From Mesaphorura yosii (Eukaryota; Arthropoda; Collembola; Poduromorpha; Tullbergiidae): a DNA stretch of 64,000 bases. Both the position numbers and the translations under genes were made by a program. The notes under the pieces were generated by a model that saw only the letters and a list, made by a program, of their open reading frames with translations, was not told the DNA's origin and searched no databases. Location of the stretch: NCBI GenBank assembly GCA_009869945.1, contig WIXG01000009.1, positions 186,001 to 250,000 of the forward strand, read 5' to 3'. Shown in pieces: positions 40,601 through 51,630 of the stretch; the first letter of the stretch is position 1; each line of letters opens with the position of its first letter.

Positions 40601-43600
40601 GTTGTCTGATTTGACGGTTGAAACAATGCCGAATGCTCGCGACCCAAATAATATTTTATTGTTTTATTGCGCAGAGGGTTTACCACGACGCCATGTACGA
40701 AGACGAGTTCACTGGCTCGACGCAGTCAGACCACGAGTGCTGCTGTCGAACGCGAGGAGGACTCTCGGCGCTTGCGTGCTGGTTCCTCAGCGTCCTCATC
40801 CTGCTTGGGCTGGCCGCGTCAATCATCCTCACCGTGTTCTTCGTCTTCAGAAGTGAGTTCCGGAAATACAAATGTCTAATGTGTCATTTTTGCCTGACAA
40901 ATTGACAAATTAAATGACAACCGAGTGATTGCCGTTCAGCTTTGAAGTCGGAGATGCGTTTGATTTTATCAGATTAACAGCTCGGCTCGACTCTGTTCAT
41001 TATTTGGGAGTGATCTAAATCTAATTGAAATCTTCACGTCACGTCACATTAAGTTGCTGATAAGGTGAATGGGGTATGGCTGAGCGTAGTAGTAAGTGAA
41101 TTAAAAAGCAGGCCGCACGATGACAGATTTCCGTGTGACCAAATTAACCACGTATCATCCCCACTGGCTAGGCTCTGGTTTCTAATGTGCGGTTAATAAA
41201 AATTGAAAATGAATTTCAATGATGAGTCAAGTACAAGTGCGAGTACGAGGCAGACGAGCAATAACAATGCAACGCGACGCACAACGCAGCGGTCACTTCT
41301 TCATCTTCATGTACTTGGAAATTTAAAAATAAAAAGTTTTTATAAGATACAGAGACAGCAGAATGCATGCAAATGTAGAACAAACGCATGAATGCGAATT
41401 CAGGCGGCACACAGGAAGTGTCAAATATTGAAGGAATTTCACGGTGCAAGACATAAAAATGTGTTCAAACTATGAAACCACAGCGTAGACACCAAGAGCA
41501 CGATCACCAAGCAAGGATCAGATAGCGAATGCCGAATGCGATCGAATCTTATCGTCAATTTGTAATCTATTAAAATAAAGACACAAATTTAAAGATCAAA
41601 ACTCAGAGCGCTACATGCCGTTTAATGATTTTGTAATTTCCCTTTAACAATGCACTGTTCTAAAGGTCGTTCCATGTGCTACAGTTTGAGCTTTAATTGT
41701 CGTTCTGTTGCAGGCCGTACGTTCATCGGCAAAGCCACTGAAAGTGGGACAATCATAACGTCAAATGAAGACCTGCACGTGGGCACCACGACCTTATCGA
41801 ACATACTATCCAATGACTTTGACCACACATTCAACGGAGGAGCGTCTACCCGGCAAACGACGCTCAAGTACGATGACACGGCGCGGGAGGAGAGCAGCAG
41901 CGAAGTGCACAACTTTGTCGTCCCTTCCCCAAAGACCTTCCCGTACCCGACCTCAACGGTGGGGACGGCGACAACGACGAGGCGACCGTCAAAGTCAACA
42001 TCGTCGGCGACAGAGCGCGGGCACGGGCATGGGCTCGATCGTCATCACCCCCAAGCAATCTCGCCAGTAATCAACTACAAGTCGGTCGTCGTTCAGAATC
42101 ACAATCCCGTCATGTCCTCTTCGCCTTCGCCGTCACAATCGCCCTCGTCCTCGACGACGATTACGTCGAGGAAAGCGTACCACGACCTGGTACGAAGCAC
42201 CACTCCGAACACGTATAATTACGGGTTATCCTCCTCTTCTTCGACGACGAAGGTAATTAATTGCGTGGAACGACTTAATAATTTGATTTATGGTGCGGCA
42301 GCCGCGGCAGTGGCAGCAGCTTTCATTTTCGTAAATTAATTGTACGAAACTTCAGGCAACAATGGCAATGAGTTCGTCCATTGTTGGTTTGATTCTCATT
42401 CTGTTCAATCCATAAATAAATATTGCTGGTGCTGAAAGCAGTGTGTGGCTTGTGGAAAGAATTTATGAATTGCATTGGTTAGTCAACAATGGCAGCAGGC
42501 AGGAGTCGAGTCTGCGTTATTTCTGTATCTCCTCTTTAATGCGTCAGATTTGTTCCAATACAATCGTTCCAACTCCACCCCGAACCTCTTTCCTCAATTT
42601 AATTTGGCTCCGGCCTGATAACTCGGCCTGTGTAATTTGAATATTAAATGTGATTGTGATTACACAGAAAGGAAAATGAGAATTGATTGACGTTGTGTTG
42701 TGAGCAGTTGAATCAAAAGCAAGGCAGCTGATTCTTAAATTGCTTCGTGCTGGTGCTCAGCGAATTGTGTTGGAATTGTGAAGCTTTTAAAGAATTAATT
42801 GAATGATGAAAGTAAAATTCTGAATGAACACAGAACGCTCAACGCATCAATTTTACTTCGTTTCCTGTACGCGTTCTATCGAATTGTATCAAAGACATCA
42901 GTCCAAATTCGAGTGAGATCAGTAAAAGTATTTAATTTGTGTGTAATCGGCAACGGACAGTTAACTTGAGTAATGAAGACTCGTTGAGCATTGTTCTTTG
43001 ACCGAATCAAGAATTAACGGATGGCACTGCTGAATGCTGCAAAATTTTAGAGACGAACAATCTTAGAAAGGAAATTAAGTACTTTATTTAGAAAGCGAGG
43101 CATGAAATCTATTAAGTTTAACCTCTTTAATTGTATTTTCATATTGGCATTCTTGGTTCACAGGATCTACTGGACTTGCAGTCGTCACTTTCCACAACGA
43201 CCAGCCGTTCTGCGATGATTAAGTTAATAATGGACACAATGAGCAAGCTCCGTGGCACGGACGACGCTAGCGTGGAAGACAGCGTGTTTCCCTCTACACT
43301 CTCGAAGGACGTGGTCGAGAAACTTAAAGCGTTAAGCAAGAAACAGCAACAGCGCAAAAACGTGGAAGAAAACGTTGAACGATACGATCAAGACGACGAT
43401 TCGAGCGACGAGAACTTGGAAAAGTTAATTGCGACGATAATCGCGTCGGAATCGTCATCAGCTGAGAAGAGCATCAAGAGACGAGTGCAACAGAGTGAGT
43501 CATAAAAGCGTACACATTTCGTTGAGCGTACACGCACACGCAATTGTAATTACGTGCAATTTCGTACACTTAATTAAATCTGCGATGTGCCTTGTGAGAT

Positions 43601-46387
43601 TTGAGCGTTAATGATTCTTTTCGTTTTCAAACAGCTTCAACTACGCCTGTCAGCGATTTCTTTGATGAGTACATCGGACTTTCTACTAAAAAGAAATCGT
43701 CCAAAGAGGACTTTAAAATCCTTGACACGACGACGACCTCATCGACGTCCGTGCCGCATTACTCAAGTCGAGGTGACCTCCTCACTAGAATCATCAAGAA
43801 TCTTGCACCTAGATTCAAGGGCAAGACAGAGAAACCCTTCGCGAGTTCAACGACGGATTCGTCCATCGAAAAGAGAGCACGCTGGGCCACCGCCTCGATT
43901 ACAACTTCAACGAGTACAACCACTGCAAAGCCAAACCCAAACGTGATCATAATCACACCCACGGTCGTTCTTCCCGGGGCAGGTTCGGCGCACTCGGCGT
44001 CTTCTTCGTCCGAGACGAGGAGGACAAATGGGCTGGAAGTTATCAAAGCTCCGACTTTGTCAAGGCCTTCATCTGATTCCGTTTCGCCGGAGCAAGACGT
44101 TCTGGATATTCTTGTTAGCAGCCAGGACTTGAAAACGATGGTCACGAAACAAACCGAAGACGGACTTGTGACTTCTGTCATTTTACCGCCGTGGTACGTG
44201 AATGACACGTACGACGACTATCGGTCCAGTACCACCCGCCGCAGCCCTGACTTTGCCTCAAAAGGAGAGAACAGCACGATAATCATTTATTCAAATGAAG
44301 ACAGCGAGAGCAGAGAAACAACGACCACGAATCCACCGCCGAGTTTGGGGAACTTCTTCAGAAACCTCTTTTTCAACACAGATCGATCGACCAGCACCAA
44401 GAAACCGACGTACCTAGAAGATAAGCGAGAGACAGGAACACTAAACCCGTTAATTTTCCGAAAAAGAGTGAAAAGCACGACGGTCAAGACGCCAATCACA
44501 AGTCCAGTGCCTGGAATTCGAACACCGCTCAACTTGCAGCCTGCCAACAATGGGTTCCACCAAGTCTCCTCCGATGGCAAAGCAAACATTTACGGATACT
44601 ACCCGGATAGTGACGAAATCCTGCAGTACAGTGATTCCAAACGAATACCAATTCCGAATCCAAACTCAGACGAGCGTGGCGAGGAGTCAAACACGAAAAA
44701 ATCGCCGAGTCATGTCATTGACATTGAGTTCGATCGCAAAATTAATCCAGAGATTATCGTGGACAATTCTGAGGAAGACACGCATCATAACGACGGTGAT
44801 TTCTTGTACGGAGGGTACGCGGCGGGCCACGGCCATCGCCACCGCCCTGGCCATGATCATATCACGGCAGGATCGAGCATACGTCCCCAGATTCTTGCTC
44901 CACCGCCAGGATTGAATATTGAACCAACTGGCGGAGGAATCCGGCACCCTGTTAGTATGTTGACCACTGGGAAGGGCGACACCCTCGTCGAATCAGATTC
45001 TTTAACTCCAAATCTGAATAATGAAACGGCAAGCAGTTCCGATGGGCCACCGCTGTCGACAACACCGTTGGGACAAGTTCAAAGCAGTACACTAACACCA
45101 GCGAGTGAGACCGCAGACAGTGATCAAGATCTCGATCAGTCAGTTCATGTGGTCGGAATTCAAATGAGTGGTTCCAGCAGCGAAGCGGCGGAACTCAACC
45201 GGCGCCCGGTGCAAGAGTTGGACGAGAAATTGTACCCGTTTTCACAAATTGTGAAGCCGAGACCAGCCGATTCACAAGAATTGCTCGAAAGCAGCCAAAG
45301 CCATGAACGGAGACAGAAGGTGGCGAAGGTCAAACCAACGACGACGACGGACAGCAGCAAACAGCAGGATTCTGATGAAATCACGACGAGAAGGCAAGTT
45401 TACGAGGTGTATGCAGTAAAATACACAACGACCGCGGAACCACCAAAACCGGTCAAAAGAAAGAACAAGAATTCGAAGGAAAGTCCATCCTCCAGCGAAG
45501 AAAATAAAAACAACTTTGCGCCACCTGAGCTGATAAATTTTCACACGAATACGTTGAAATTTAGCCCGGTACTCACCACCGGCGGGTTTCTGCCGTCAGG
45601 GGATCTTGCAGGTGACAGATGGAGGCCCGTAATGCACGAACAAGATCGCGAACACTCGCAAAGTAATATTCGTCAAGTTCGTACGTCCACTCCAGCAGCG
45701 CCAGCGCCAAAGATCATGAAAAGACCTATGAAGCATTTCTTCAATACTGCCGACGACAATGAAAAGCAATCTTCAGGTGGCAACAGCTCTGGTGAAGAAC
45801 GGAACTCTCTCGCGTCCAGCAACATGTGGTTTCAGACAACTGAAGCTCCTCCGTCGCTGTCACCTCCTCCGCCACAACCACAGAAGCCTGTCAAGCTACC
45901 GATTCGCCCGTCACAGCCAATACAACCACCGCCGACTCCTCCAATGCAGCAACATCATTTTCAGCATGGCCACGGACACAGCAACATGCATTATTTAATA
46001 AGCCCTCACGACCACGTTGTTCACCATCCCAACTTTGCAAGCAACAACCATTTGCACATCGACCGAAGCAAATACCTGCATCGGCCGGCCCCACCACCAA
46101 TTTTGATGCGAAGGACGCCTCATCAGCAAGGAGCGATAGCTAGTCTGCCGCCGCACTTTACGGATATGCATGCGGTGCGAAAAGTCTCTACTCCGAATTA
46201 TCCGCCGCAGTATTTAAGCAACCAGCAGCAATTATTAAGGCAACAGCAGCAGCTCCATCAACACATGACCAGAATGAAAGCGCAAAACCAGCAGCCTAGA
46301 GGAGACGTGAATTGGCAATCGTCGAATAATGAATACCAGGCAAATTTGGCAAATCAGCAGCACAATTTCCACCGGAGGCCCGGCTAA
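37614..46387 (+). CDS. large type II membrane protein with Ser/Thr/Pro/His-rich mucin-like ectodomain
   Basis: Five exons: 37614-37652, 40675-40852, 41714-42252, 43164-43494, 43635-46387. All join in phase, giving 1279 residues. Without the first exon, translation could begin at MYEDEF in exon 2. A short cytoplasmic tail with a Cys triplet (35-37, possible palmitoylation) precedes one membrane segment (about 43-71, LSALACWFLSVLILLGLAAS onward). No signal peptide precedes it, so type II topology is inferred. The ectodomain, over 1200 residues, is low in Cys and very rich in Ser and Thr, with STTT-type runs suited to O-glycosylation, acidic and Lys/Arg clusters, then Pro- and His-rich parts (HGHRHRPGHDH; QQHHFQHGHGH) and a Gln-rich C-terminus. 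No enzymatic domain or family is recognised. A surface or cuticle-associated role is a guess. Confidence 0.75.
38573..39151 (+). CDS. secreted beta/gamma-crystallin-like protein, nested in an intron
   Basis: A 192-residue frame starting with a signal peptide (about 1-29; core LFVLFLTSVSVTLVSS). Residues 54-137 resemble a two-motif beta/gamma-crystallin (Greek-key) unit: CQIFELPKYEGEFLHL, a middle NLLHLIESKWGNS, then SIKLFGTCHLYGCTEERFAG and VSVQCRC. Six Cys (54, 101, 106, 115, 135, 137) could form disulfides. The fold call rests on spacing and aromatic pattern, not a database match. The tail is uncertain: a possible 43-base intron (donor after EFK near 39063, acceptor near 39099) would replace the last 29 residues by about 18 and end at 39154. 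The gene lies inside intron 1 of the membrane-protein gene on the same strand, just before the FAHD1-like gene. Confidence 0.6.
   Translation: MECSQRQHARVCTLFVLFLTSVSVTLVSSTPLPIGLDAGTGTDGDTDHQQLSGCQIFELPKYEGEFLHLENRQEAPNLLHLIESKWGNSTKRHSIKLFGTCHLYGCTEERFAGLCKTFNATRKVVLQNRIVSVQCRCADIIIVYKNEGGGGDSDRERERDLEFKVTLNVFALHNSRLQRHQIGIISLKFVNS
39152..40203 (+). CDS. FAHD1: fumarylacetoacetate-hydrolase family protein, FAHD1-like
   Basis: FAHD1 proteins are mitochondrial acylpyruvate hydrolases and oxaloacetate decarboxylases. Exons: up to 39321 (frame open from 39152, ending KKIIGVARNY), about 39442-39535 (STKPIFFLKPTTSYLLEGEPIR), 39642-39788 (IPKDVGKIYYEVELGVVIG to VVLDLTAKDLL) and 39853-40203 (KGLPWEISKGFDTFTPVGPF, GDVQQYENTSQMVF, ILTGTPDGAGEL, stop TAA). 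Metal ligands E-x-E (YYEVE) and Asp (VLDLT) are present, as is the ITGTP-type loop. Two problems: no ATG in the first exon's frame, so the start is in an unseen exon or the gene model is wrong; and the His-Glu segment that follows RNY in relatives is not found. A short ATG frame at 39154, MTMQSRAPMTRILGRP, resembles a mitochondrial presequence but is out of phase. Confidence 0.8.
40355..40360 (+). terminator. poly(A) signal of the FAHD1-like gene
   Basis: AATAAA about 150 bp past the FAHD1-like stop and before the next exon of the host gene at 40675, so the nested transcript can end within the host intron. Confidence 0.5.
40531..40563. repeat. CGCGC/CACGC simple repeat
   Basis: Degenerate tandem CACGC and CGCGC units in intron 1 of the membrane-protein gene, about 110 bp before its second exon. 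Much more CG-rich than the surrounding intron. Confidence 0.5.
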
Positions 46388-46774
46388 CTGATCGGAGATC
46401 GGAGTCCGAGAACAATCGCAATGCAGTGCAAAATGTAAATGCTAAATGCAAGCAGAGACTGATAAATTACGGCAGCAAGCTGGGGACCTTTTTTGTGTTG
46501 TTGGGCGTTAGCGAATTTAGTCGAAGTCATAAGTGAAGTTGGCAAAAGTTCAAGAATCTTTAATCCAAAGAATGCTTTGCGGTGGTTGTTTGCTTATTAG
46601 AGTTTCGTGCTAGATTAATTGAGTTTGTAAATGTCAGTTACTCGCGTAAGAATTTATGTAAGGTGCCCAGTAGTTTTTATTACTCGAGCTATGTTTTAAT
46701 TATGATTCTTGGATGTTTTATATTTTATACACTTTTGTACGCCCGTCTTTGAATGATTGGAACAAATACACATT

Positions 46775-46780
46775 TTTATT
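46775..46780 (-). terminator. poly(A) signal of the bestrophin-like gene
   Basis: AATAAA on the minus strand, about 45 bp beyond the stop codon at 46825. The convergent membrane-protein gene ends at 46387, so the two 3' ends share a space of about 440 bp. Confidence 0.6.
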
Positions 46781-46824
46781 GAAACACAAATCAAATACTG
46801 AAAGCATAACACAAAAGCAGGCCA

Positions 46825-48983
46825 TTATGGATTCTCTGTCAGGAGGGCCGTCAGAGTTTCATCTCCCTTCGAGTTTCTGTCACCAGCCGCTGCTGCCCCT
46901 GACGCGTTCCTCGCCTTTTGGTACTCTTCTTTCATCATCCCAGACGTACCTGTGGAAATGATTTCGTGGATAGCGTCTGGTGACTTACTGGAAAGCTCCA
47001 GAGCATTCAGAGAGCAATCTGGGAGCAAAGGCTGATTCTTGGAGGAGAAAATCCACTCTTCGGGAGATGGCAATTTGTTCCCACACACTACCATGATTTC
47101 TCTGCGCGTCACCTCGCAGAAGTCGTCCAACGGCTGTCGGACAGTTAGCAAAACATTAGCACAGCATTTAAAGTACATCATGCCAGGATTTTTCTCACCA
47201 AATCATTGTCGTCGTAGCCAACTGCAAAATGAGGAAGCCGTAATTAGCACACTTGCCTTAATTATGATGATATTGAGCTGACTTACAAGGATTCTCGATT
47301 TCCCATCCAATTCCAAGAATACCTGCATTGCACGGATAAAGGAATACATTGTATTTCCTGGACCCTGCTACTGCTCAAGATCACTCGATTCGTCGATCTT
47401 ACCCAGCAGCGCAAACGAAGCCATGGTCGTAGCCGGAATCGTCCACCAATTCAGCTGCCCAACCATTTGAAAAGGCAACGCCAACAAGTATAGCCAAATC
47501 GAATGGTTCAAATGAACGGAGTAAGCGAGAGGAATCGGAGTCCTGAGAATTCGCTCGAAACTTGTCAGACAATCGACCAAAGTGATCACGGCTGAAACAC
47601 CAAAAATTTGTTACTGTGATTACATGTCATTTAGCAAATTCGCGTAATTCTACGCCTACAGCTCTGCAATGACGAAACCAGCGACGGTTCAATCATTCCC
47701 CTTGAATTAACACTGCTGATGTAGGATGACAAGTAGTACGACAGCTCAATTGGAATGTTGGACGGTGTTGCGATGTCGTGCGCTGTGAACTTGTTCTTTA
47801 CGATCGGTTTCTGAGACTCCAGCGCCACATTTGAGGAGGGCGTCTCGAATTTGGGCAGGTGACCGATCAGATCCTTCAAGTCATCAAAATCATATCTGAA
47901 AAAGGCGAAACCAACAAAATGCAGATGGCATATCGTGCATACAAATTGCGGGTGGTTATGAAACAATTACGAGTATTCTTCCCGAAGATAATGCTTCGTA
48001 GCGAACACGAATCCTGTGAGTAGATTGATGGCGGACTTCTTCTCAATAACATCGCGAGCGTCATTCTCTTTCACCCCGGACCAGATGCCTCGTGTCAACG
48101 TCCGAATGCAAATTGTCATCTGAGACCAAATTCGTCTTCCTTCCCAATACCTGAAGTGCCAAATATGCAATCATCAAGAAATGCTATAAAACTTGATTTT
48201 ACTGCATATTTCGAACTTCAATACAGTATGCAATTCATTGTATTTAAATTAATTCATTAAGTCATTCTTGTGACCGCGTCTGTGCCTATCAAAACGTAAT
48301 GAATGACAAATGACGCAGCATAAAATCATTGTGCTGGATATGAATTGTGATTACGTATTACGTAGATTCCAGCGTATAGAAATATCTGACGACAAAAGCT
48401 CTCAAAGTTCTGACTCTGAATTTCAACGAAGACACGAGTACATAAAACAGGAGTGTCTTTTGTATACTTCGTTTTTCCAAGCATTGATTAGCAAACAATT
48501 AGCCGGACCGTGCGGATGGACTGAAAGGAGTTAAATTCGCCTGTGCGTAATTGACCGATCCGATCGTCTTGTTCTAGCATATGAATCATCAAACCCTCTA
48601 CATCAGTTGCGTATTTCGATACTTTTACAGGCTATGAAATGACTTTGAAGCATTCGAAACGTCTGCTTGAGAATAATGCGACTTCTTACTAATTGCTAAC
48701 CTGTCGTAAGCTGTATTCGTCCGGAACACCAGCAGGAGACCTAAACAATTAAAAAAGCAGTTAATACAATAAATCTTCGAACGAGCACGTGATTGTGATT
48801 AACAGAACATTAGAATTTGTGCGCACCTGTCACAACGCCCAGCACCGGAATCAGCGTCTGTGGGAAATTCAGCTGGAAACCCGGCACGTACTTGTGGATG
48901 CAAACGACGACGGCTGTGTACGCAATCATAAACAGAATCTGCCACCATATTCGCAAAATCACGGTGCCCTTCAGACGAAACAT
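46825..48983 (-). CDS. bestrophin-like (UPF0187 / RFP-TM) membrane channel, fungal-type
   Basis: Predicted anion channel of the bestrophin superfamily. Eight exons, read right to left: 48827-48983, 48701-48740, 47971-48150, 47660-47895, 47403-47591, 47287-47322, 47199-47221, 46825-47133. Every phase agrees; total 389 residues. Family landmarks: FRLKGTVILRIWW plus a first membrane segment (about 8-30), LIPVLGVVTGLLLVFRTN (44-60), TAYDRYWEGRRIW (61-73), a C-terminal membrane pair (IWLYLLALPFQMVG and TTMASFALLGILGIGWE) and IENPFGYDDNDL (276-287). The last motif and YWEGRR are the UPF0187 form seen in fungi, bacteria and plants; metazoan bestrophins carry a different pore and Ca-clasp sequence. 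The frame stays open without ATG to about 49142, so an N-terminal exon may be missing. The introns show it is a resident eukaryotic gene, not bacterial contamination. Confidence 0.85.
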
Positions 48984-49142
48984 TGTGCGATTGTGCCAAA
49001 CACTGGAGTTCAAGAACACGAAGTGGAATCGGTCAGCCCAAGAGAGAGTGGACAGTGGACAGTCTCTGTCTGCTACTGCTGCGTCTGTTGAACTGATTTG
49101 AACCGTCTCCTCCGGTGTCCACTCGAAGTATGATTCATGTGG

Positions 49143-50058: not shown

Positions 50059-51630
50059 TTAAATAGCCAACTGCTTCATCTGTCGAATCAGAGTTGGTAA
50101 ATTCCAGATGATTATCTGGCCATCAATTGATGAACTGGACAGAGTCAAGGCATTTTCCTTTGAGCCGGAGTGAATTTTAAGTCCAGTAACAGTGTTCTGA
50201 TGCAAAGAGCCCAACTCGACGTCCTATAATAAGACAATCGAATTAGTCTGGAGTCCACCAGTCGTTCAGTCCTGAAGTACCAGCGTACAGAATCTTACCT
50301 CTTCGTTCACAACTTTTGCATGTCGGTCAAGTGACTGGAATTTCTTCATTGCCGTTACTCCGCCCTGTTCTTTCTTCTGCTCGCTGTTATCCACTTTTCC
50401 CAAACAAGCTAATCCCAGTCCGTTATGGCCTTGAACGACTTGGAACAACATCGGAGTCAGACTGTGGCCTGCAGCCACGATATTTTCCGCATTTATCCAA
50501 ACAACTGATAAGAACGGTAGGAATTGTGTACGCAAAGAGGAAACCGTCGCGGGCTGACCATTACCATTGCCCTGAGCAATGGATATCGAAGAATCGTGAC
50601 CCACCTACATAAGACACAATTTCTTGACCCGCTACTCCAAATTAGCATATGATTTAGTAGATGTATCAAGTACCCAGGTGATTCTGCTTCCATCATGACT
50701 AAACGAAACATCGTGCACCCAACCACCGCAGCCAACCAAGTTATTTGGAAATTCATGCATCAGCTGGCCAAGGGGCATCTTTGCTCCCCATACGGTGGGC
50801 TGTGGTTTCTCCTCAATGTCTTTGATGTATGCCGAAAATATCCTCACCTGATAATGATAACAATGGCAAAGAGAGTTCAGGAATATGCTGAATGCTTTGC
50901 GTATAAGTGCTATGTACCTTGAAATCGGAAGAACCGGTCGCCAGCAATATATTGTTTGGATGCCAATCTAATGAGGTCACCGTTGACCGAATGGGTTTCT
51001 TGATGTGCTTGGATACCCACCAGTCATTCTCTTTCTCGAAGTAACACACCTTCAAATAAGTGAGAACGTCAGCAAAGTCTAGGGGCCTTTAAGTTGGTTG
51101 ACTTGAACTTACAGAAATAATTTTGGCTCCAGAACCAACCGCGAATTTGTTCTCAAGCGGGGACCATTTGACGCAGGTGGCCGCACGGTTGATTCGCAAC
51201 AACACCAAGGTCGGTTTCCATTTCTGGTCCGGGCCATCTTGGATCCAGACATACGCGTTTCTATCCTGTATTGGCAACGGACAGCTGACGTGATGCTATA
51301 CTGGCCTAAGGGTCGAGTTATAAGCTTCAGGCAAAACATACCGCCGCACAAGTGACAATTCGATTCGTCCTGGGTCCCCAATCGATGCCTGTGACACGCA
51401 GATCGTGCTGCTTCAGAACGTCAGTCAGGATCCAATCGTTGCCTGCCTTCTTGTAAATATGGACTTCCGATGTATTCGGCGACATCGCAATTTCTAAAAC
51501 GACAGTTGACTTAATTCATGCGCTCCTGTTGCTCCGTTCTAATTTCAATTAATGAATTCTTACGTGTCCTGTCCTTGTTCCAGGCGTGACAAGTGATTGG
51601 ATCCACCCCAAAACTGTGTCTTTCTGTCAT
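50059..51630 (-). CDS. ARPC1: actin-related protein 2/3 complex subunit 1 (ARPC1)
   Basis: WD40-propeller subunit of the Arp2/3 complex, which nucleates branched actin filaments in the cytoplasm. Seven exons, right to left: 51564-51630, 51342-51493, 51113-51265, 50918-51049, 50674-50847, 50299-50604, 50059-50223; phases agree and give 382 residues, close to the usual 370-380. Characteristic text: [20 protein letters not shown] then [103 protein letters not shown], and a C-terminal repeat ending [11 protein letters not shown] loop with [17 protein letters not shown] before the last repeat corresponds to the ARPC1-specific insert that contacts actin. Divergent from XPF with about 630 bp between start codons. 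Confidence 0.97.

Follow-up and report, generated by a model that had tools for sequence, protein, structure and literature searches.

Bestrophins are well-known animal chloride channels. The locus analysed here raises the question of how a bestrophin-like gene of the form that Pfam names Bacterial/Fungal came to stand among animal genes, and whether it stands there alone. The window, a stretch of 64,000 nucleotides, corresponds to bases 186001-250000 of a 601-kb contig (C9) of a genome assembled to 93 Mb in 1127 contigs.

Structure of the gene and its surroundings

The gene model on the minus strand (48983-46825) joins 8 exons, separated by 7 introns, into a single open frame that ends with a stop codon at 46825 and encodes 389 residues, counted from the in-frame ATG at 48983 (Table 1). 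All introns are of the GT...AG type, with lengths of 86, 550, 75, 68, 80, 65 and 65 bases in order. The model reproduced the eight in-phase exons, seven introns and 389 residues reported in an earlier sequence-only reading of this DNA, and both motifs named there, RTNTAYDRYWEGRR and IENPFGYDDNDL, are found in the protein. The span of 46825..49142 given in that reading holds as a coding region for 46825..48983; the remaining 53 in-frame codons ahead of the first ATG (48984-49142) contain no start codon. They may be 5' untranslated or the end of a further coding exon upstream, and a by-eye comparison with the N-termini of the paralogues revealed no visible likeness.

Table 1. Features of the bestrophin-like gene and its neighbour, in window positions
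Feature	Position	Strand	Basis
PF25539 bestrophin-like gene, ATG to stop, 8 exons, 389 aa	46825..48983	-	gene model, Pfam, PDB
Open in-frame stretch before ATG	48984..49142	-	gene model
Exon 1, coding from first in-frame ATG, A at -3	48827..48983	-	gene model
Exon 2 (LLLVFRTNTAYD)	48701..48740	-	gene model
Intron 2, 550 bases, phase 2; position common to 4 paralogues	48151..48700	-	spliced alignment
Exon 3 (RYWEGRRIW...YLREEY)	47971..48150	-	gene model
Exon 4	47660..47895	-	gene model
Intron 4, phase 1; position common to C7, C316, C725	47592..47659	-	spliced alignment
Exon 5 (SVITLVDCLTSFERILRTPIPLAYSVHL...)	47403..47591	-	gene model
Exon 6 (ILGIGWEIENP)	47287..47322	-	gene model
Intron 6, phase 1; position common to C254	47222..47286	-	spliced alignment
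Exon 7 (FGYDDNDL)	47199..47221	-	gene model
Intron 7, phase 0, between NDL and PLD; in 6 of 8 complete family members	47134..47198	-	spliced alignment
Exon 8, including stop codon	46825..47133	-	gene model
AATAAA, polyadenylation-like signal, 45 bases past stop; may be chance in A+T-rich DNA	46775..46780	-	sequence
Part of ARPC1 gene (host neighbour)	50813..51085	-	structure-sequence match

The bestrophin-like gene is adjoined by an ARPC1 gene, one piece of which matches ARPC1 structures (3.7e-28), whereas the two pieces at 50266-50601 and 51089-51292 of the same gene were without a Pfam match. The window further contains frames with Sec1, ERCC4 and caspase domains. The animal surroundings claimed for the gene were thus confirmed through its ARPC1 neighbour, and the host neighbours together with the introns place it within host sequence. 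Chitin_bind_4 domains belong to cuticle proteins and point to arthropods; 66 matches to this domain in the genome suggest an arthropod host. The telomere repeat of tardigrades had 0 matches, which makes a tardigrade less likely as host. The nematode profile Col_cuticle_N also had 0 matches, but none in any control genome either, and PF01395, an odorant-binding family found mainly in hexapods, had four (best 1.8e-5), too few and too weak to decide. A fatty-acid-binding frame matched 234 PDB sequences, with vertebrate-type names among the 60 listed, and gave no hint of the host. The COX1 query, which was found in 8 of 14 controls, had 0 matches, and the assembly may therefore lack the mitochondrial genome.

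On the other side of the gene, the plus-strand frame at 43598-46387, described before as mucin-like, gave no Pfam match. This frame and the bestrophin-like gene converge, with their ends facing each other across 46388-46824, where AATAAA/ATTAAA motifs were found on the minus strand and none on the plus strand.

Family assignment of the protein

Searches with Pfam profiles place the protein by score in PF25539 (Bestrophin_2, Bacterial/Fungal Bestrophin), with 260.8 bits (2.2e-77, profile positions 10-286 of 288) against a curated cut-off of 27 bits. For PF01062, the animal bestrophin family, it reaches 17.1 bits (E 0.0031) and falls under the cut-off of 24.2 bits, so that by score it is not a member. 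The sequence motifs agree with this assignment. The EIE(N/D)PFG-D-ND motif and the hydrophobic neck of bacterial PF25539 members are present, whereas the acidic cluster NPFGxDDDDFE of PF01062 is not, the protein reading ENPFGYDDNDLPLD instead. Metazoan bestrophins belong to the same superfamily and those checked carry this acidic cluster; in the host genome it was found on 4 of the 7 contigs with PF01062 matches. The difference from ordinary animal bestrophins to which the sequence-only reading had pointed is therefore borne out by both profile score and motif. Its term 'fungal-type' is covered by the Pfam name in part only: EIENPFGYDxNDLPLD occurs equally in cyanobacteria, which supplied the closest sequences reached, and 'fungal-type' hence cannot be told from 'cyanobacterial-type' by this motif.

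A search of PDB sequences revealed 22 distinct matches up to E 1, of which 19 are named bestrophin or bestrophin homolog (best 8e-25); we take these 19 to be KpBest of Klebsiella and its variants. The others were 'Rhodopsin' 7pl9, presumably a fusion of an algal rhodopsin with a bestrophin, and 7ek1 and 7ek3, each named 'bestrophin-like protein'; we assume both of these to be plant proteins and 7ek1 to be a plant VCCN. The bestrophins of the group 4wd7, 4wd8, 5x87, 6iv0 and others, presumably the bacterial KpBest, have a PF25539-like form and match residues 2-124 and 185-310 of the window protein, but read DPFGTAANDL where it has NPFGYDDNDL. The presumed plant protein 7ek1 (2.6e-15) and VCCN1 are members of the same superfamily, as is 7pl9.

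Passages in the literature describe a plant bestrophin-like protein as a voltage-dependent chloride channel (PMC4890181), anion currents in fungi (PMC10301571), a Bestrophin domain in three bilaterian-specific membrane orthogroups, with its form not stated in the passage (PMC7535936), and the name 'Bestrophin/UPF0187' in a nematode database (PMC6056837). The titles and abstract openings listed, a scope outside which most subscription papers lie, made no mention of the PF25539 form in animals or of its transfer to an animal.

The gene is one of about nine in the genome

A PF25539 profile search of the 93-Mb genome detected 20 matched stretches on ten contigs (C9 with the window, C371, C868, C309, C254, C7, C316, C725, C1060 and C1006). 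On C1060 (end of L032) and C1006 (L027) the matches run up to the end of the contig, and each covers the half of the profile that the other lacks. We read them as halves of one gene, which leaves about nine genes. The single extra channel of the sequence-only reading is therefore a family, and the number of its genes gives it the appearance of an old, multiplied family rather than of a lone recent import. PF01062 detected 27 stretches on 7 contigs of the same genome, so ordinary animal bestrophins are also present. The host accordingly carries a second, microbe-type set of bestrophins, similar in size to the native set.

The 8 complete members form one clade (100/100), within which the identity between distant paralogues goes down to 35-45%. 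An astacin gene lies beside one paralogue and a gene with an AARP2CN domain beside another. NG86 estimates for six family pairs gave dN values of 0.19-0.47; dS was 3.3 in one pair and 5.1 in another, and could not be computed for the other four, which we read as saturated. These data fit purifying selection on the family. In the C254 member (L030:2442-2796, minus strand) the loop after TPSS extends to 112 residues, compared with 13 in the window protein, and is rich in Lys, Thr, Ala, Pro and Glu.

Intron positions are shared between distant paralogues

Intron positions were compared in the 8 complete members by our own spliced alignment, in which the gene models of the paralogues are predictions. 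Two introns called in the low-complexity loop of C254 were overruled by hand. The first model of C725 was likewise overruled, and a GC-AG intron was chosen there over a GT-AG alternative that gave a poor junction. This probable GC-AG intron (L028:3181-3239) has a GCAAGT donor; three members have GT-AG at the same position.

Introns in the same alignment column and phase were found at five places: phase 0 in NDL|PLD (6 of 8 members), phase 2 in YD|RY (5 of 8), phase 1 before the ERILRTP region (4 of 8: the window gene, C7, C316 and C725), phase 2 in EI|GWEIE (2 of 8) and phase 1 in NP|FG (2 of 8). The window gene has all three introns of C7 and two of the three of C316, each 45% identical to it; if introns fell at random, such sharing would be expected with chances of 3e-7 and 1.6e-4 respectively, which span the range for the intron-sharing pairs (42-45% identical). 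C309 and C316 also have two of three introns in common. Shared positions and phases in paralogues of about 45% identity imply that introns predate the splitting of the family, and an intron-bearing common ancestor is most likely on this comparison of predicted genes. Four of the seven introns in the window gene are common to paralogues, and much of its intron set is thus older than this copy; the other three are in no other complete member. Ancestral introns agree with a eukaryotic donor or with long residence in the host, but no less with plain vertical descent.

The member on C371 (L024:2209-3393) is intronless, while C309, the member closest to it (75% identical), has 3 introns. The missing introns alone make it a probable retrocopy that has kept its open frame.

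Bacterial and viral relatives

With the window protein as query, matches were obtained in 71 of 194 genomes of the cyanobacterial phylum, 93 of 377 of Proteobacteria (phylum assigned from one record) and 45 of 198 of Bacteroidota. Among the matches listed, the best cyanobacterial one reached 202 bits with 45% identity over residues 3-303, and the best five full-length ones were 42-45% identical; partial stretches went up to about 50% and others down to 22%. The best listed for Proteobacteria had at most 132 bits (34-36%) and for Bacteroidota 112 bits (37%). Cyanobacteria are thus the nearest of the three bacterial phyla sampled. A pattern scan of prokaryote genomes revealed 8 relatives among 83 candidate stretches, the 5 best of which are cyanobacterial (36-39%). 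Viral contigs contained 12 relatives among 93 stretches, 11 with 25-31% identity and one whose best segment has 45%.

The listed cyanobacterial proteins (e.g. L066, L067) have the EIENPFGYDxNDLPLD stretch in common with the window protein, but are encoded by intronless open frames of about 300-345 residues, and cyanobacterial genomes have one to a few bestrophin-like matches each against about nine genes in the host. Two bestrophin-like frames lie close together in one genome from the cyanobacterial phylum (L072).

The phylogeny proposed in the sequence-only reading was run with bacterial homologues from these three phyla, and the host is the only eukaryote in the trees. In a quick tree (68 of 85 rows) the 8 animal proteins formed one clade (100), the cyanobacteria one group (94) and both together a group with 99. 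A more careful tree (51 of 85 rows) again gave the animal clade (100/100) and joined it to cyanobacteria (100/99), with a long animal stem branch (1.01). Here the cyanobacteria were split around the animal clade and formed one group in only 30% of 200 bootstrap trees; constraining them to one group was not rejected (AU p 0.447), and a group of the animals with four cyanobacterial rows had a support of only 59/14. Both a sister position of the animal clade to cyanobacteria and a position nested within them are allowed.

Origin of the family

Contamination or misassembly as the source of the window gene is very unlikely, and far less probable than any other explanation considered here: the contig is 601 kb long, the gene has an ARPC1 neighbour and seven spliceosomal-type introns, paralogues occur on nine other contigs, two of them beside the astacin and AARP2CN-domain genes, and no point in support was found. 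With slightly more confidence than doubt, we regard the gene as a working gene of its arthropod-like host for a PF25539 channel, one of about nine from an intron-bearing ancestor, with a founder that arrived by old transfer. The founder would have reached the animal line before the family multiplied, which we hold to be somewhat likelier than its opposite, and a single intron-bearing ancestor would then have given rise to the about nine genes. Transfer of the founder is plausible as judged from the sequences, and for it counts that cyanobacteria are nearest while the genome keeps its ordinary animal bestrophins; against it stand the long stem branch, a tree with the host as its only eukaryote, and a place that may be either sister to the cyanobacteria or nested in them. 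A serious alternative, to which we give a good deal less than even weight, is old vertical inheritance, in which the PF25539 form was present in early eukaryotes or animals, was lost in most well-studied animals, and was kept and multiplied here. It agrees with the intron-bearing ancestor, the 35-45% identity of the paralogues, their single clade and the normal host context. The joining of this clade to cyanobacteria to the exclusion of other bacteria argues against vertical descent, but weakly, since the host is the only eukaryote in the tree.

Two narrower versions are special cases of the old transfer. Transfer from a fungus, as the sequence-only reading had it, with introns carried along or gained later, appears unlikely: the Pfam name of the family and an ancestor with introns, which fungal genes can have, speak for it, yet the motifs are equally cyanobacterial and the sequences in the trees beside the host's own were bacterial. 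Slightly less likely again is transfer from a cyanobacterium, or from an alga with the cyanobacterial form, followed by intron gain in the animal before the duplications. The bit scores of the cyanobacterial matches, well above those of the other two phyla, favour such a donor, as does the failure of cyanobacteria to form one group in 70% of the 200 bootstrap trees. The unrejected single cyanobacterial group, its recovery in the quick tree, the low support for the animals with four cyanobacterial rows and the sampling of three phyla weaken the case, and all introns would have to be gained. Doubtful even beside these is the full scenario in which a cyanobacterial-type bestrophin was taken up long ago, given introns and multiplied to about nine channel genes beside the native bestrophins, as a second channel family of foreign origin. 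If the founder was acquired, a transferred ion channel would have diversified into a family inside an animal; if it was inherited vertically, a lost branch has to be added to the history of animal bestrophins.

Predicted channel properties

By homology, the window protein is predicted to be a bestrophin-fold channel subunit. Like its solved relatives, it most likely assembles into a pentamer with a central pore, and by the same analogy would conduct small ions, of which chloride or bicarbonate are the probable ones. Anions are the likelier choice, but the preference is unsure, because the bacterial relative KpBest passes cations.

Both Asp residues of the motif are present in all 8 animal family rows. 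By BEST1 numbering they stand at Ca2+ clasp-like positions; the same aspartates are conserved in nearly all motif-bearing bacterial rows, which makes them uninformative, and we draw nothing from them on a Ca2+ clasp.

The residues of the hydrophobic neck, located by KpBest numbering, are V, L and F in the window protein. According to the alignment, two members (C316 and C725) have T, F and F, and the neck reads I, L and F in 30 of the 39 cyanobacterial rows, out of 40, in which the pattern was found.
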